Below, one piece after another: positions 3,518 to 9,312 of a stretch of 14,820 bases of DNA. The notes under the pieces are model-generated. The model was not told where the DNA came from. It did no database searches and worked only from the letters and a program-made list of their open reading frames with translations. A program made the position numbers and the translations under genes. Source of the stretch: Candidatus Acidulodesulfobacterium acidiphilum (GTDB lineage Bacteria; SZUA-79; Acidulodesulfobacterales; Acidulodesulfobacteraceae); the NCBI GenBank assembly GCA_008534395.1, contig SHMQ01000031.1, positions 1 through 14,820 of the forward strand, read 5' to 3'. Numbering within the stretch: the stretch's first letter is position 1; each line of letters begins with the position of its first letter.

Positions 3518-3676
3518 TCAAACGTGAATATTTATATTGCCGTTTGACTCCTGAACAGTAACCGAGGGCGGAGCATTAGGCAGTTTTATTTTTATTGGCG
3601 GAGCGTTCTGAATAATCTGCTGATAATTAGTATCTATTGTACTGGCAGGCGTAGAAGTAATGCCGGTAACCGCCAT
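3518..3676 (-). CDS. Small 52-residue protein of unknown function
   Basis: This small ORF starts at ATG 3676 with a strong AAGGAG ribosome binding site 7 nt upstream, and a TATAAT box at 3712-3717 about 35 bases before the start. The predicted protein begins MAVTGITSTPASTIDTNYQQ, has two Ala-Pro-Pro segments (NAPPIKIKLPNAPPSV), and ends in INIHV. There is no signal peptide, membrane segment or cysteine. Codon use resembles neighbouring genes, with GC-richer codons than the surrounding spacer. The stop lies 26 nt before the tilS start, so the two may be co-transcribed. I do not recognise a family. The good ribosome binding site and promoter make a real gene likely; the role is unknown. Confidence 0.6.
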   Translation of the reverse strand: MAVTGITSTPASTIDTNYQQIIQNAPPIKIKLPNAPPSVTVQESNGNINIHV

Positions 3677-3792: not shown

Positions 3793-4254
3793 TTATGCTT
3801 TTTCAGAATTATCGAACGAAATTTCAAAATAGGTTCTTTTTTCTATCATGGTGTGTACGGGGCATCTTTGTGAAACCCTCTGAAGCTCTTCTATCTGGTC
3901 GTCGTCTAAATTTCCTATAAATTTTATCTTTTTTTCAATTTTATGAACATAACCCCTTTCATCGTCTATTTCAACCCCCGATTCTTTTAGTTCTTCTACT
4001 CTGACCCTTTTGTGCGTAAGATTTATCTCTACGCCCTGCAGGTCGTACTTCATTCTTTTTGCAAACATCATAAGTACGGAAATAGTACACGAACCTTCCC
4101 CTCCAAGCACAAGCTCTATTGGATTAATCGCAAGTTCGTCGCCACCCGAAGCCTCCGGCTCGTCCGTGATTATCGTATGTTTTTCCGTAATTATCTGATT
4201 TTGCAAATTATTTAAATGCTTAACTTTGACGTTGACTAATTCTGCTTCGTTCAA
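3793..4254 (-). CDS. OsmC-like family protein
   Basis: This 153-residue protein has the OsmC/Ohr fold signature. Family members use two cysteines to reduce organic hydroperoxides, and some OsmC-like proteins have other or unknown thiol functions. Cys56 in ELVLGGEGSCTISVL and Cys131 in SQRCPVH match the conserved pair; the first lies at the start of the long central helix. The start is TTG at 4254 with AAGGAG 8 nt upstream. It lies 22 nt after the stop of the LipS1-like gene, so it is almost certainly the last gene of the lipoate operon. Inference: it may protect or process thiols or persulfides, or reduce lipoyl disulfide, in support of the upstream enzymes. Some OsmC proteins are reduced by lipoylated proteins, which makes the context suggestive. 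The substrate cannot be read from sequence. Confidence 0.88.
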   Translation of the reverse strand: MNEAELVNVKVKHLNNLQNQIITEKHTIITDEPEASGGDELAINPIELVLGGEGSCTISVLMMFAKRMKYDLQGVEINLTHKRVRVEELKESGVEIDDERGYVHKIEKKIKFIGNLDDDQIEELQRVSQRCPVHTMIEKRTYFEISFDNSEKA

Positions 4255-4276
4255 TTCTTTTTCTCCTTATTCGCCT

Positions 4277-5395
4277 TTAGTATTCCAGCAATTCCTTTCT
4301 TACCCTGTTTACGTCGACGGCGTTAAGCTCAAAAGGAAAACTTCTTATATTTTTTGGAGAAGAGTCGCCGAAAGGCCTGTTGCAGGCGGAAATTTCGGTT
4401 CTGCCTGGACAGCCGGTAGTCTGGAAAGCTGCGCCTCTTTCTACTATTTCCGCTATGTTTTTAAACGGTATTCCGAAATCTATTATTTTTCCGCTTTCGT
4501 CAAATTTCATATCGTCTGCTCTTCCCAAATCGTAGTCGATTATATGTCTTGCGACCTGAATTCTTCTATACTGGCCTGCGGGACATTGAGGGTGGTTTTC
4601 TAATTTAGAACCCTTTTCTTGATAAAAAGAAAAAAGATGCGACCTTGCGCCTTTATCTCTTACCGACTGTATTCTTTCCGCCATTTCTTTCTCCGTTTCT
4701 CCAAGTCCTACGACAAGGTGGCATCCGACTTTATTTTTGCCGAAAACGGAAACCGAATATTTCAGTATATCGTTATATTTCTCCCATCTGTGAGGACCTC
4801 CGACGCCTCTGCCCCTGTACTCGTCGAACAACTCCGGCGTCGCGGCATCTAACGCCACGGTAACCATATCCGCTCCGTATTCTTTAAATCTGTCTATATC
4901 TCCGTGTTTTAATATAGTCGGGGTCATAAGTATAGAAACGGGACAGTGCAGTTCGCCCGAAAATCTTCTTAAAATAGTAAAAGTGTCGTCTTTTGCCTTT
5001 TCGTGCGTTATCATGGAAATACAAATCCTATCCACTATTTTTTTCTTTTTTAAAGTCGATTCTATTATGTCGTCTGTTTTAAACGCCGGCCAATCTACCC
5101 TTATAAAACTCTTATCGTTATATCCTCCTTCTCTCGATTTTTGAAGTCCGCAGTAAGCGCAATTTGCCCTGCAGCCTTCTTCGTAAGTCAAAAGAACGTT
5201 TATGCAATGGAGGCAGGCATTGCGGTAAAAAATACCCGGTACGAAATCCATAGTCATAGCCGCCGCCAAACTCACCTTTAAATATTCAGGAGAACTTCCT
5301 ATAATGTCGGTATTTTCTTTATTTTCACTACATCCGCAGTTAAAATCCAAATTTTTTGCCGCCTCTTCCGCCGTATATCCGGTTATTCCGTTCAT
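4277..5395 (-). CDS. lipS1: Radical SAM lipoyl synthase component, LipS1-like
   Basis: This 372-residue radical SAM enzyme has the cluster motif CX3CX2C at Cys75, Cys79 and Cys82 (EEGCRANCAYCGLQK). Further cysteines could bind an auxiliary Fe-S cluster: Cys20/Cys22 (NCGC), Cys61/Cys64 (ACLHC), and others near the C terminus (TTGCPGR, SACNRPF). LipS1 and LipS2 are biotin-synthase-like enzymes that together insert two sulfurs into octanoyl-protein, replacing LipA. The assignment rests on pairing with a second such enzyme, a lipoate-protein ligase and two LbpA-like carriers. The choice of LipS1 over LipS2 is by recollection of the family and could be swapped. It starts at ATG 5395 with GGAGG 9-10 nt upstream, 41 nt after the ligase gene. 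The alternative is another biotin-synthase-related radical SAM enzyme. Confidence 0.72.
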   Translation of the reverse strand: MNGITGYTAEEAAKNLDFNCGCSENKENTDIIGSSPEYLKVSLAAAMTMDFVPGIFYRNACLHCINVLLTYEEGCRANCAYCGLQKSREGGYNDKSFIRVDWPAFKTDDIIESTLKKKKIVDRICISMITHEKAKDDTFTILRRFSGELHCPVSILMTPTILKHGDIDRFKEYGADMVTVALDAATPELFDEYRGRGVGGPHRWEKYNDILKYSVSVFGKNKVGCHLVVGLGETEKEMAERIQSVRDKGARSHLFSFYQEKGSKLENHPQCPAGQYRRIQVARHIIDYDLGRADDMKFDESGKIIDFGIPFKNIAEIVERGAAFQTTGCPGRTEISACNRPFGDSSPKNIRSFPFELNAVDVNRVRKELLEY

Positions 5396-5436
5396 ATTTT
5401 TACTTCCTCCGTTTTCTTTTTTATTGCAATAACGAA

Positions 5437-7002
5437 TTATTTTATTGCATTATCCGCAGTTATCTGCCGCCCGTTAAAAATTTTAAATAAAACGCGCGCG
5501 CCGAGCGTAGTTTCTCCATTAAACTTGCCTTCGTAAGCATCTCTTTCTTTTTTATACTTATAGCATAACGGAGAAGAAATATCGATCAACAGAGCTTTTA
5601 TACCGCTGTTTTTAAACGCTTCGTTTCTTTTTATATAAAATTCTTTGCAACAGAAACCGATATAAGATTTAATACCTTTTATTTTCAACTCTTTTAAAGT
5701 TTCTACTAAATTTTCGTAACTTATAACGGTTTTTGGAATAATTCCGTATTTTTCCGCAAATTTATAAGCAATGCCGGTTTCGCATTCGCCGCATGCAATA
5801 CATTTATCCTTGTTTCGAAACTCGCAGTCCGGTTTTTTTGCGCAATATGGGAGCAAAATATATTCCGCAGAAGAAATATCTTCCGCATTCATTCCGTTTA
5901 CGAATGTAAATCTAGATAAATCTTCTTCTTTTAGTCCGGCGTTTTTAAGAAATTGAACTTTATTTATTATTTGAACTATTATATTGAAAAAATCTTCTTT
6001 CTTTACGTTGCGAAATTCAGGCTTAAATTTTTCAAAATAATCGTCTATTTTAAATATCGCTTCATTAAGAGGAACGTCTTTAAGACAGCTTTCTAAATCA
6101 TTAACCGTCCTTGCCGGCGAAACGAAAAAATCACCAGTAAAATATATATATTTTAATAAATTTCTTTTTTCGTCCACCTTTGCGAAGGTTTTAAAAATTC
6201 CTCCTCCGCATTTATATATTTCGGAAATTATTTTTGTTTCCGCGGGGTCGAAATCTTTTGAATAAATCCATTCTTCGGACGAATAGAAAGAGCGGTTTTC
6301 ATTTAAAAAATCTTCTTCTTTCTTAGAAATTGCAGATTCATAAAAATCTAAATTTAAATGTTCCTTGAAGCCTTCTAGGACGGCAGATTTTATAGTATCT
6401 AAATCCGGTATATACCCTAAAATATTTTTGACGGAAATTACCCTTGATAAAATAGAATCAAAATTTTTAGCCGTCAGTTTTTCTATGGGTATTTTTAAGG
6501 ATTTTACCATATTTTCAGGATTAAAATCCAAGAGAAGCGTTCCCTGAAAAAAATAAACAGAAGACTCGTAAGTTCCGCCCGTTCCGGATATTTTGCGCCC
6601 TTCGACTTCTATATCGTTTCTCGGTCTGAATTCCGCATTTATACCAAGCTTTTTCATTCCTTTAGAAAAAGCAGTACATATATTTTCGGTTAAAGCATCT
6701 AAATTTTTAATTTTGATGCTTTTAGCCGAAAAAACAAGTTCCCATCCAAGCTGGGTTTCGTCGAAATATATAGCCCCGCCTCCGGTAATCCTTCTGCCGA
6801 CTGCTATGTTTTTTTCTTTGCAGTAATCTAATCTTATTTCGCTGAATACGGATTGATGATAACCGGTCAAAACGCAGGGTTCGAATCTTAAAAAACGGAA
6901 AGTGTCTTCTATTAACCCTTCTTTTCTTAATTCTATCAGGGCTTTATCCATGCATATATTGTAAGAAAAATCTTTTAAGCCCGTGTCTATAACTCTAAAC
7001 AT
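5437..7002 (-). CDS. Lipoate-protein ligase (sLpl(AB)-like) fused to a DUF116-like Cys-rich domain
   Basis: This 521-residue protein appears to have three parts. Residues 1 to about 235 are an LplA-type ligase: RRITGGGAIYF at 70-80 is the lipoyl-AMP binding loop, and Lys137 in GRKISGTGG matches the active-site lysine. Residues about 240-325 resemble the ligase accessory domain (LplB or C-terminal domain) needed to activate lipoate. Residues about 380-510 resemble DUF116, with Cys387, Cys393, Cys401, Cys404, Cys407, Cys451/452 and Cys480; the CIACGEC stretch looks like an Fe-S or zinc ligand set. Known two-domain ligases are much shorter, so the tail is an extra module. The likely role is attaching octanoate or lipoate to the two LbpA-like proteins. 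The ATG at 7002 has no clear Shine-Dalgarno sequence, and repeat copy 2 fills most of the space before it. Confidence 0.85.
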   Translation of the reverse strand: MFRVIDTGLKDFSYNICMDKALIELRKEGLIEDTFRFLRFEPCVLTGYHQSVFSEIRLDYCKEKNIAVGRRITGGGAIYFDETQLGWELVFSAKSIKIKNLDALTENICTAFSKGMKKLGINAEFRPRNDIEVEGRKISGTGGTYESSVYFFQGTLLLDFNPENMVKSLKIPIEKLTAKNFDSILSRVISVKNILGYIPDLDTIKSAVLEGFKEHLNLDFYESAISKKEEDFLNENRSFYSSEEWIYSKDFDPAETKIISEIYKCGGGIFKTFAKVDEKRNLLKYIYFTGDFFVSPARTVNDLESCLKDVPLNEAIFKIDDYFEKFKPEFRNVKKEDFFNIIVQIINKVQFLKNAGLKEEDLSRFTFVNGMNAEDISSAEYILLPYCAKKPDCEFRNKDKCIACGECETGIAYKFAEKYGIIPKTVISYENLVETLKELKIKGIKSYIGFCCKEFYIKRNEAFKNSGIKALLIDISSPLCYKYKKERDAYEGKFNGETTLGARVLFKIFNGRQITADNAIK

Positions 7003-7029
7003 ATGCGGTAAATGATTTGATATACCTAT

Positions 7030-7117
7030 AAAAAGATATCAGATTAATTTTACGTAAAATCTTTTTATATTTAATTGTTTCTTTTCGAATGCGAGAAATA
7101 AAATCTGATGCCTTTTT
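7030..7117. repeat. Dispersed palindromic repeat, copy 2 (diverged, inside the lipoate operon)
   Basis: This 88 bp element has the same orientation as copy 3 and the same core (TTAATTGTTTCTTTTCG) but is more diverged. The arms read AAAAAGATATCAGATT and AATCTGATGCCTTTTT. In both arms the GTCAG of the other copies has become ATCAG, a paired change that keeps the stem. It lies 31 nt after the lipS2-like stop and ends 27 nt before the ligase ATG, so transcription of the ligase and LipS1-like genes must pass through it. Confidence 0.82.
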
Positions 7118-7148
7118 CTTTATATTTTATATGCTTGCATATTAATAT

Positions 7149-8150
7149 CTAATTACCGGTTTTTATTACAGGCAAAGCCGATTCCGAAAAAATTAAAGAA
7201 CAGCAGACCTCTGAAAACTTAGGTTTTAAACCTAAGTTTACGCTGAAAGGAATTATTCCTTCCGAGGGATAAGCTATGCCGTTTAAACCGGCTTTTACGG
7301 CAAGTTCTTCTATTTTAAACTTGCTCAATCCGTAAGGCCTTTCGCATCCTAAAAGAATAGGAGTTTTAATGAATTTTTTCCGCGCATATAAAAAAACCTC
7401 TCCTATTTCTTCTGCGGCCGGCGGGACTATGTTTTCCATTTTCGTATTTTGCATAGGCATAAAACCTACAAGTACAAGCGACGATATATCGTAATTAGAT
7501 ATAATATCTATCGCATTAAATTCTCCTGCTATTATGCCGTGTTTAAGCCCTATTACTACGTGTGGCGAACATGGAATTTTCCTGTCGGATAAATATTTTA
7601 AAGAATTTTCGTAGTCTTTAACTTCTGCATTAAGATGGTAAATTTTACGTATCGTATCTTCTTCGCCGATAATATCGAGCATGGCGGAATCAACTCCGGC
7701 TTCCAAAAGTCCGTCGGCTATCTCTTCGGTGATTAGTCCGCAATGCACTATTACTTTGAGATTTAACTCGGATTTTATCTTTTTAACGGTTTTTATATAA
7801 GGAAGAATATCAACTATACCCCTGCTGTTAGAACCGCCGCTAAGGAGAAAACCCAATCCCCCCGACTTATAAATAGCATTAGCTCTTGCAAACAGTTCGT
7901 CCGGAGTTAATGCAGGAGCCATAGATTTTAAAATTTCCGCATTGCAGTGTTCGCATTTTAAAGAACACGAACCTCCCGTAATCGAAAAAGGAGGAAAAGA
8001 GTCCGATTTTGTATTTTTAAAATCTTCCGTTTCGTAAGATTTTATACTTGGGGCATAAAAATTTATTTCCGAATCGAAATATATTTTTCTTATTTCAAAA
8101 CCTTTTGCGTATTCTTCGTCAATATTTTCGTTATATTCATAAAAACTCAT
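7149..8150 (-). CDS. lipS2: Radical SAM lipoyl synthase component, LipS2-like
   Basis: This 333-residue radical SAM protein has the 4Fe-4S motif CX3CX2C at Cys62, Cys66 and Cys69 (ITGGSCSLKCEHCNAEIL). The TIM-barrel continues through LLSGGSNSRG, VHCGLI, DSAMLDIIG and SPHVVIGL. The C-terminal part includes LLGCERPYG and GIAYPSEGI. It resembles the biotin-synthase homologues annotated as LipS2, the partner of LipS1 in two-step sulfur insertion on octanoyl-carriers. The ATG at 8150 lies 2 nt after the stop of the second lbpA-like gene, so the two are translationally coupled. Which of the two radical SAM genes is LipS1 and which LipS2 is an inference; the pairing itself is better supported. Repeat copy 2 follows. 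Confidence 0.72.
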   Translation of the reverse strand: MSFYEYNENIDEEYAKGFEIRKIYFDSEINFYAPSIKSYETEDFKNTKSDSFPPFSITGGSCSLKCEHCNAEILKSMAPALTPDELFARANAIYKSGGLGFLLSGGSNSRGIVDILPYIKTVKKIKSELNLKVIVHCGLITEEIADGLLEAGVDSAMLDIIGEEDTIRKIYHLNAEVKDYENSLKYLSDRKIPCSPHVVIGLKHGIIAGEFNAIDIISNYDISSLVLVGFMPMQNTKMENIVPPAAEEIGEVFLYARKKFIKTPILLGCERPYGLSKFKIEELAVKAGLNGIAYPSEGIIPFSVNLGLKPKFSEVCCSLIFSESALPVIKTGN

Positions 8151-8152
8151 AC

Positions 8153-8599
8153 TTATCTCTTTTTGCAGATTATATCTTCCTTTTCAAGCTTTTTAACATA
8201 GGCTTTAACGGCTTCTTCGCCGAAAGGAAGAGAGTTTAAGTCGGAAACGGACTCCGGAAGAGGTTTTAACTTTACTATCCATCCTTTTCCGTACGGATCA
8301 ACATTTATAATATGAGAATCGTTTTCGAGCTCCTTATTTACCTCTGTTATTTCGCCGGCAAAAGGCATAGGAAAAGGACCTACGTATTTTCCGCTTTCTA
8401 TGGTAGCGGCGCTTTTTCCTTTTTTGATAATTTTTCCGACTGCCTTAACGTCTGCGTAAAGAATCTTACCCGCCAAAGACTGCGCAGGATCCGTCATTCC
8501 GAAAGTAAAAGTTCCGTCATTGTTTTTTCGACCCCAAACCTGATTCTCAATATCGTAATAGAGATCATCCGGTAAATTACATTCGTTAAAAATAGACAT
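8153..8599 (-). CDS. lbpA: GcvH-like lipoate-binding protein, LbpA type (second copy)
   Basis: This 148-residue lipoyl-domain protein of the GcvH fold has Lys71 in IESGKYVGPFPMPF as the expected lipoylation site. Glycine-cleavage H proteins normally have ESVKAxSD here; ESGK-x-VGP is the pattern I associate with LbpA, the lipoate-binding protein that works with sHdr in sulfur oxidation. GMTDPAQSLAGK and DPYGKGW are further fold signatures. Cys7 and Cys145 occupy the same places as Cys8 and Cys145 of the neighbouring paralogue. The start is ATG 8599 with GGAG 7-8 nt upstream. It lies 31 nt after the first lbpA-like gene and is coupled to lipS2. By eye it is roughly half identical to its neighbour, so the duplication is not recent. 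A role as a glycine-cleavage H protein is not excluded. Confidence 0.83.
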   Translation of the reverse strand: MSIFNECNLPDDLYYDIENQVWGRKNNDGTFTFGMTDPAQSLAGKILYADVKAVGKIIKKGKSAATIESGKYVGPFPMPFAGEITEVNKELENDSHIINVDPYGKGWIVKLKPLPESVSDLNSLPFGEEAVKAYVKKLEKEDIICKKR

Positions 8600-8630
8600 T
8601 TATATACTCCAATTTTTTTACAAATTTATT

Positions 8631-9071
8631 TTATTCGCATTTAATTCCGTCGGCTTCAATTTTTTTCTTGTATGCTTCTACCGCTTCTTTTCCGGTAAGC
8701 AGATTTTTTTTGTCTGCTTCTATGTTGTCGGCTTTAATCTTGCATACCCATCCTTTGCCGTAAGGGTCGGAATTTATTAAGGATACGGTTTTAACCGCCT
8801 CATCGTTTATTTCCGTTATTTCTCCTGAAAACGGAGCGGGGACGGGCCCGACGTATTTTCCGCTTTCTACCGTTGCGACCGACTTAAGCTGTGCTATCTT
8901 TTGGCCGACTTTTTTAGGAGTAAGGTATAAAAGTTTACCGGCTAAGCTTTGAGCTACGCTCGTCATTCCGACGGTCACTATTCCGTCGTCGCCTAATTTC
9001 CCCCAAACGTGTTTTTCTACGCTGTAGTATAAATCCTCCGGAATATCGCATCCGTTAATCTTGGACGGCAT
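8631..9071 (-). CDS. lbpA: GcvH-like lipoate-binding protein, LbpA type (first copy)
   Basis: This 146-residue GcvH-fold protein has Lys72 in VESGKYVGPVPAPFSGEITEIN as the predicted lipoyl-lysine. The N-terminal GCDIPEDLYYSVEKHVWG, the GMTSVAQSLAGK segment and DPYGKGW match the family. The ESGK-x-VGP context favours LbpA over glycine-cleavage GcvH. Cys8, Cys109-110 region (GWVCKIK) and Cys145 are extra thiols; Cys8 and Cys145 are shared with the second copy. It is the first gene of the lipoate operon: ATG at 9071, AGGAGG about 8 nt upstream, and a good sigma70-type promoter at 9128-9156. No sHdr gene is in the window, so its partner oxidoreductase is unknown. In known systems LbpA carries sulfane sulfur or sulfite-forming intermediates on its dithiolane. 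Confidence 0.85.
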   Translation of the reverse strand: MPSKINGCDIPEDLYYSVEKHVWGKLGDDGIVTVGMTSVAQSLAGKLLYLTPKKVGQKIAQLKSVATVESGKYVGPVPAPFSGEITEINDEAVKTVSLINSDPYGKGWVCKIKADNIEADKKNLLTGKEAVEAYKKKIEADGIKCE

Positions 9072-9127
9072 AATAAATTCCTCCTTAATTTTAATTTAAA
9101 TAAATTGCGTTTAATTTAATTAAATAT

Positions 9128-9156
9128 ATAATACTACAATTTTCTATTATTCTCAA
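9128..9156 (-). promoter_or_regulatory. Candidate sigma70 promoter of the lipoate operon
   Basis: On the minus strand, TTGAGA (9156-9151) and TATTAT (9133-9128) are separated by exactly 17 nt; each matches consensus at five of six positions. Transcription would start near 9121, giving a leader of about 50 nt before the lbpA ATG. No riboswitch-like structure is apparent in that leader. The promoter would drive lbpA-lbpA-lipS2-ligase-lipS1-osmC. Confidence 0.6.
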
Positions 9157-9205
9157 GTATACCTTTAATCCTGCAATAAAACAACAAAAACCCTCTTATA
9201 TACAG

Positions 9206-9292
9206 AAAAAGGTGTCAGATTAATTTTACGCAACATCTTTTATCGTTAATTGTTTCTTTTCGTATGCTTAAAATAAAATCTGACACCTTTTT
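9206..9292. repeat. Dispersed palindromic repeat, copy 3
   Basis: This 87 bp copy is in reverse orientation to copy 1, with outer arms extended to CAGAAAAAGG and CCTTTTTCTG. It lies 20 nt after the stop of the crotonase gene and about 50 nt upstream of the lbpA promoter. It therefore separates two transcription units, where its stem and T-run could end transcription of the efflux/crotonase unit. The core is asymmetric (TCGTTAATTGTTTCTTTTCG), so it is not a plain terminator palindrome. Confidence 0.9.
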
Positions 9293-9312
9293 CTGACGCT
9301 TTGATAGTATTT

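Follow-up and report, generated by a model that had tools for sequence, protein, structure and literature searches.

A lipoate-assembly operon with paired LbpA carriers and a ligase fused to a DUF116-type domain in Candidatus Acidulodesulfobacterium acidiphilum

A six-gene cluster of Candidatus Acidulodesulfobacterium acidiphilum encodes two LbpA-type lipoyl carriers, the radical SAM proteins LipS1 and LipS2, a lipoate-protein ligase and an OsmC-like protein. We propose that it is probably that part of an sHdr-LbpA operon for sulfur oxidation which assembles lipoate and provides the carriers. It is a variant of the LipS1/S2-sLpl pathway in which LbpA would be loaded for sHdr. The new element of the operon, as judged from sequence, is the ligase, a two-domain Lpl that carries a fused, soluble DUF116-type domain. 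An initial annotation held that the operon makes and loads lipoyl-LbpA; profiles, trees and ligands give good support for LipS1/LipS2 and for a ligase predicted to load LbpA-type carriers, whereas the loading itself stays a prediction.

The window analyzed here is the entire 14,820-bp contig C31 of a 2.09-Mb genome (70 contigs, scored 100% complete) from an uncultured acid-mine bacterium within SZUA-79/Ca. Acidulodesulfobacterales. We found all six ORFs of the initial annotation, with Pfam families in agreement, on the minus strand in the order ECH (enoyl-CoA-hydratase-like), lbpA1, lbpA2, lipS1, ligase, lipS2, osmC, tilS and ftsH. This order is shared by about 20 relatives from six genera, osmC being its least constant member, and the arrangement is therefore not due to chance. 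The relatives are nearly all metagenome-assembled genomes, and those retrieved by the LipS1 search include SZUA-79 and Candidatus Acididesulfobacter diazotrophicus AP1; gene absences in genomes refer to profile or BLAST searches. A tblastn search of plasmids with ligase and LipS2 queries found no full-length relative, and an Rfam search gave zero matches. Between osmC and tilS, a 52-aa ORF with a good ribosome site (MAVTGITSTPASTIDTNYQQ...) lies at 3518-3676 (minus strand).

From lbpA1 to osmC the intergenic gaps measure 31, 2, 146, 41 and 22 bp, and the 146-bp gap, between lipS1 and the ligase gene, contains a palindromic repeat of ~91 bp (7020..7119, minus strand) that may break the transcript. 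A single promoter had been proposed for the operon. The sigma-70-like match upstream of lbpA1 (TTGAGA-17-TATTAT; 9128..9156, minus strand) is no better than chance, with 15 matches found against 18.1 expected, and the repeat splits lipS1 from the ligase gene; the single promoter stays putative. The repeat (AAAAAGGTGTCAGATT...AATCTGACACCTTTTT), for which a long hairpin is predicted, has three copies in the window (9205-9294, 7020-7119 and 1828-1918) and about ten in 211 kb of this genome. One of the copies occupies the ECH-lbpA1 junction, here without the hdr cassette described below (sHdr-A), and the same is seen in genome G005.

The carriers LbpA1 (8631..9071, minus strand; 146 aa) and LbpA2 (8153..8599, minus strand; 148 aa) match GCV_H with E values of 1e-35 and 2e-35 and have their lipoyl lysines at K72, in ESGKYVGP, and K71, respectively. 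Both are GcvH-like proteins distinct from GcvH and lie beside hdr genes in relatives, which identifies them as LbpA-type carriers. LbpA1 is 54% identical to LbpA2, 53% to a third LbpA and 25-35% to the two GcvH of the genome, and lbpA2 adjoins lbpA1 in every SZUA-79 relative whose operon was read. The duplicated carriers had been singled out as a distinctive trait, but LbpA1+LbpA2 pairs were already known in sulfur oxidizers (PMC6067878). The third LbpA-type carrier (ESGKWVGP; L072 8914-9363, G000:C1:120961-121323) is encoded away from the lip operon, with thioredoxin-fold and DsrE-like neighbors.

Both LipS1 (7149..8150, minus strand; 333 aa) and LipS2 (4277..5395, minus strand; 372 aa) match Pfam Radical_SAM and carry the expected CX3CX2C motif, at 62/66/69 and 75/79/82. 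LipS1 scored 221.2 bits against NCBIfam NF053742, below the cut-off of 230 that two of its close relatives exceed, and LipS2 scored 217 bits against NF053743, below the cut-off of 270; the runner-up families were far lower, at 27 and 53 bits. The auxiliary-cluster ligands mapped in T. kodakarensis are C230, C276, C277 and probably H159 for LipS1, and C85, C276 and C279 for LipS2 (PMC9585515). Every one of these mapped cysteines is retained (C269, C316 and C317 in LipS1; C125, C329 and C338 in LipS2), and LipS1 H197 corresponds to H159. The six LipS1 cysteine positions are invariant across all LipS1 aligned, those of LipS2 are present in 40/40 aligned sequences, and an extra C64 is common to the LipS2 clade. 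Trees were rooted on the genome's own BioB, plus LipA for LipS1. LipS1 groups with LipS1 of Asgard, Azospirillum and lineage f42 (95/97), and LipS2 clusters with proteins of Asgard, f42 and Azospirillum (98/97), SZUA-79 standing beside Azospirillum and f42 within that cluster (85/76). Profiles, trees and ligands thus agree with the identity originally assigned to both proteins, and placement outside the LipS1/LipS2 clades was not found in these trees, whose named members do not include the characterized enzymes. An apparent LipS1::LipS2 fusion in Azospirillum (L146) proved spurious: it arose from a long ORF in GC-rich DNA, and LipS1 is in a different frame.

The gene lpl::duf116 (5437..7002, minus strand) encodes a protein of 521 aa with Pfam matches to LplA-B_cat (E 5e-44) and DUF116. 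Its match to Lip_prot_lig_C, at residues 276-342, is weak (19.7 bits against a cut-off of 24), and the model matches ligases over residues 1-343, with Z up to 21 (Thermoplasma LplA) and 18 (two-domain enzymes); residues 1-345 form a two-domain lipoate ligase with a catalytic and an accessory domain. The ligase had been described as extended, and the extension, a cysteine-rich DUF116-type domain, is the element of interest here. The Pfam match (31.1 bits, gathering cut-off 25) covers residues 377-481 (5560..5874, minus strand), and the domain spans about residues 365-512. Eight cysteines (C387, C393, C401, C404, C407, C451, C452 and C480) are invariant across SZUA-79 and Asgard sequences, and most align with stand-alone DUF116. 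The domain appears soluble and lacks the hydrophobic stretch with which stand-alone DUF116 proteins are equipped at the N-terminus. Its model is of moderate quality (pLDDT 80) with a Rossmann-like fold, and a fold search gave a best Z of 7.1, to a designed protein, and a best Foldseek E of 0.04, with no informative relative among the matches listed. Literature searches did not find a paper connecting DUF116 with lipoate. The fused domain probably holds one or more Fe-S clusters and would act as a scaffold feeding cluster or electrons to LipS1/S2.

We further examined the distribution of the ligase::DUF116 fusion. It occurs across SZUA-79, in about 30/227 Asgard-phylum genomes (full-length matches, frames of 520-620 aa), where it is part of LipS2-LipS1-Lpl::DUF116-LipT operons, and in a single further bacterium, G060, the only genome found in a search of its phylum. 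The G060 fusion is flanked by tusA-like and lipT-like genes on a contig of 3.3 kb, and contamination is possible. In that contig (L211 211-2049) the TusA-like gene immediately precedes the fusion, a hint at sulfur delivery. In an unrooted tree of the ligase part, SZUA-79 stands beside Asgard G563-G566 (100/98), within the spread of Asgard fusions, and the data do not reject a single origin for all of them (p-AU 0.64). A transfer of the fusion between Asgard archaea and SZUA-79 bacteria is likely; the trees do not settle its direction, because the ligase tree has no root and the LipS trees disagree with it.

Other readings of DUF116 were set aside. As a general lipoate gene it would not be expected to stand alone as frequently as it does (110/386 genomes match), on contigs other than those of lipS2 in the genomes compared. 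A role as LipT substitute is disfavored by the presence of both in Asgard operons. Further long DUF116 ORFs (G164, G168, G288) were discarded as fusions, as the ligase domain was not recognized in them. Separately, this genome itself encodes a stand-alone DUF116 protein away from the operon (L215 7861-8613, G000:C5), with neighbors that resemble fmt and def.

The osmC-like gene (3793..4254, minus strand; 153 aa; Pfam OsmC, 45.8 bits) has a TTG start after AAGGAGAA and keeps C56 and C131, around which its product aligns to the OsmC domain of 9wo1. It adjoins the operon in 13/15 relatives with complete context and was not found beside it in G017 and G020. OsmC/Ohr proteins are described as lipoyl-dependent peroxidases in references cited by PMC10332631, and the protein encoded here probably takes dihydrolipoyl-LbpA as reductant, acting as a putative LbpA-dependent peroxidase. 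The operon has no lipT, and the sole candidate found elsewhere in the genome is a flavoprotein that is 29% identical and belongs to a broad family.

In many relatives, the ECH-lbpA1 junction (9072..9312 here) is the site of a 5.5-kb ArsR-hdrC1B1A-C2B2 cassette, sHdr-A. It consists of an ArsR regulator and hdrC1-B1-A-C2-B2, directly upstream of lbpA1, and about half the relatives carry it at the operon. ECH and lbpA1 are 5.5-6.4 kb apart with the cassette, 245 bp here and 106-731 bp in eight others; in these nine genomes the two genes are joined on one contig and sHdr-A was not found. The absence of adjacent sHdr genes reported at first is therefore true of this genome, whereas in many relatives sHdr-A forms the first part of the same operon, lbpA adjoining it. 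As the H gene is absent, sHdr-A is not a type-I sHdr and is graded as sHdr-like only. Among close relatives without sHdr-A, w is 0.02-0.11 for the operon genes, values that match or slightly exceed those of the neighboring ftsH and RND pump genes, and 0.04-0.08 when the DUF116 part is taken by itself; this purifying selection shows that the operon is still in use. The f42 lineage (L264 1-8626, L263 7230-11182) has a different Hdr-like/lipoate cluster, ordered in L264 as hdrA-like, hdrC2-like, hdrB2-like and other genes, then LbpA-like, an unfused 352-aa ligase, lipS2 and lipS1.

The operon had also been described as self-contained, a description that needs correcting in view of the rest of the genome. 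Contig C51 carries hdrC1 (truncated by the contig end)-hdrB1-hdrA-H-hdrC2-hdrB2, a type-I sHdr core whose order is intact in relatives; H, a 256-aa gene with no family match, is assigned by position, and HdrB1 is 46% identical to HdrB1 of sHdr-A. C16 encodes LipA, which scores 335.6 bits against PRK05481 (cut-off 203), and C14 encodes GcvT-GcvH-GcvPA-GcvPB. Other LplA/LipB-type matches are limited to C43 and C48, beside a GcvH, and the ends of these contigs share sequence and therefore look like one LplA/LipM-type gene. The third LbpA adds to this set. A separate LipB was not found in genome searches, so that the claim of an operon without LipA and LipB stands, but does not extend to LipA in the genome. 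With LipA and an LplA/LipM-type gene by GcvH elsewhere, the genome seems to serve GcvH through LipA and LbpA through LipS1/S2; bacteria are reported to have LipA and LipS1/S2 together commonly (PMC10332631). Nearly all relatives also have an unlinked type-I sHdr core (L095 = G000:C51; L096-L101), and no lbpA was found beside it on the stretches seen, although published sHdr genes are described as invariably accompanied by lbpA (PMC6067878).

In homologs, the ligase octanoylates or lipoylates LbpA, and LipS2 and then LipS1 insert sulfur (PMC6067878, PMC10332631, PMC9585515). From the gene content, conservation, family placement, ligands and sHdr-A pattern, we infer corresponding activities and a client here. 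The ligase would put octanoate or lipoate on LbpA1 K72 and LbpA2 K71; LipS2 would add sulfur at C8 and LipS1 then at C6, each spending its own auxiliary [4Fe-4S] cluster. The lipoyl-LbpAs would serve sulfane-sulfur oxidation via the sHdr complex, and GcvH would be handled separately by the LipA and LplA/LipM-type route. The ancestral operon was probably ArsR-hdrC1B1A-C2B2-lbpA1-lbpA2-lipS1-lpl::duf116-lipS2-osmC; the hdr cassette would have been deleted in this lineage, leaving carriers that most likely serve the type-I sHdr core of C51.

The pairing of sHdr with LbpA in this genome is drawn by analogy, and the lack of linkage between the core and any lbpA on the stretches seen counts against it. 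Nevertheless, sulfur oxidation by sHdr requires LbpA in homologous systems (PMC6067878, PMC10332631, PMC9585515), and the pairing appears to fit transcripts of the order, which include hdrB2, hdrC2, gcvH, sqr and sirA and were published under labels such as methane or glyoxylate metabolism (PMC6776010). We consider it improbable that LbpA1 and LbpA2 serve another system, such as a lipoyl-dependent OsmC peroxidase or one-carbon metabolism, with sulfur oxidation secondary. The adjoining osmC of most relatives, with both cysteines kept, and the reported peroxidases would favor such a client, but osmC was not found beside the operon in two genomes, GcvT-H-PA-PB and a further GcvH are already encoded in this genome, published LbpA cannot replace GcvH (PMC6067878), and about half the relatives have sHdr genes in this operon.

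A carrier set left without any client, decaying as a relic after loss of sHdr-A, is very hard to reconcile with intact ORFs throughout, retention of both carriers and the low w of every operon gene in sHdr-A-less genomes, even though the cassette is absent at this locus in this genome and eight others and lipS1 and the ligase gene now have a repeat between them. The history of the cassette itself is less clear-cut. On the locus tree its presence requires 5 changes, not clearly fewer than with shuffled labels, and this patchiness would suit late, repeated gains between ECH and lbpA1. We regard such gains as unlikely, since the same genes stand in the same order at the same insertion point in several genera, with HdrB1 93-98% identical, and a single shared position is explained more simply by losses. 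An ancestral sHdr-LbpA operon that lost its hdr cassette thus remains our preferred account.

More tentatively, and doubtfully as a whole, the DUF116 domain might be an Fe-S module that renews or reduces the sacrificial LipS1/LipS2 clusters on a ligase scaffold, bringing octanoylation and both sulfur insertions into one complex, shared by Asgard archaea and SZUA-79 through gene transfer. If true, this would be the first function for a DUF116-type domain, and it offers a testable handle on how LipS1/S2 renew their spent auxiliary clusters and on their electron source. The natural absences of the sHdr-like cassette (about five events) beside kept carriers can reveal which sHdr complex belongs to which LbpA. 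sHdr-LbpA sulfur oxidation would also be extended to Ca. Acidulodesulfobacterales, whose hdr and gcvH transcripts carry other labels.

Among known systems, the sLpl(AB)-LipS1/S2 clusters of Thioalkalivibrio K90mix and Hyphomicrobium denitrificans (PMC10332631, PMC6067878) likewise combine lipS1, lipS2, a ligase and one or two lbpA, with sHdr alongside as in relatives of this genome. Here, however, the ligase is fused to DUF116, OsmC stands in place of LipT and the operon is unlinked to sHdr. The Asgard operons share the same fusion (37-43% identity end to end) and related LipS1/LipS2, but differ in gene order and contain LipT, with lbpA and osmC not recognized alongside. LipS1/LipS2 of T. kodakarensis (PMC9585515) have CX3CX2C and all mapped auxiliary-cluster cysteines in common with the proteins described here, which are longer, carry the extra C64 and space the last LipS2 cysteines as C-x8-C rather than C-x2-C. 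Finally, LP-x-C, CxxCGxC and later cysteines of stand-alone DUF116 (PF01976) align with the fused form, which differs in lacking the N-terminal hydrophobic region and reaches only 31 bits, and in the genomes compared the stand-alone genes lie off the lipS2 contigs.
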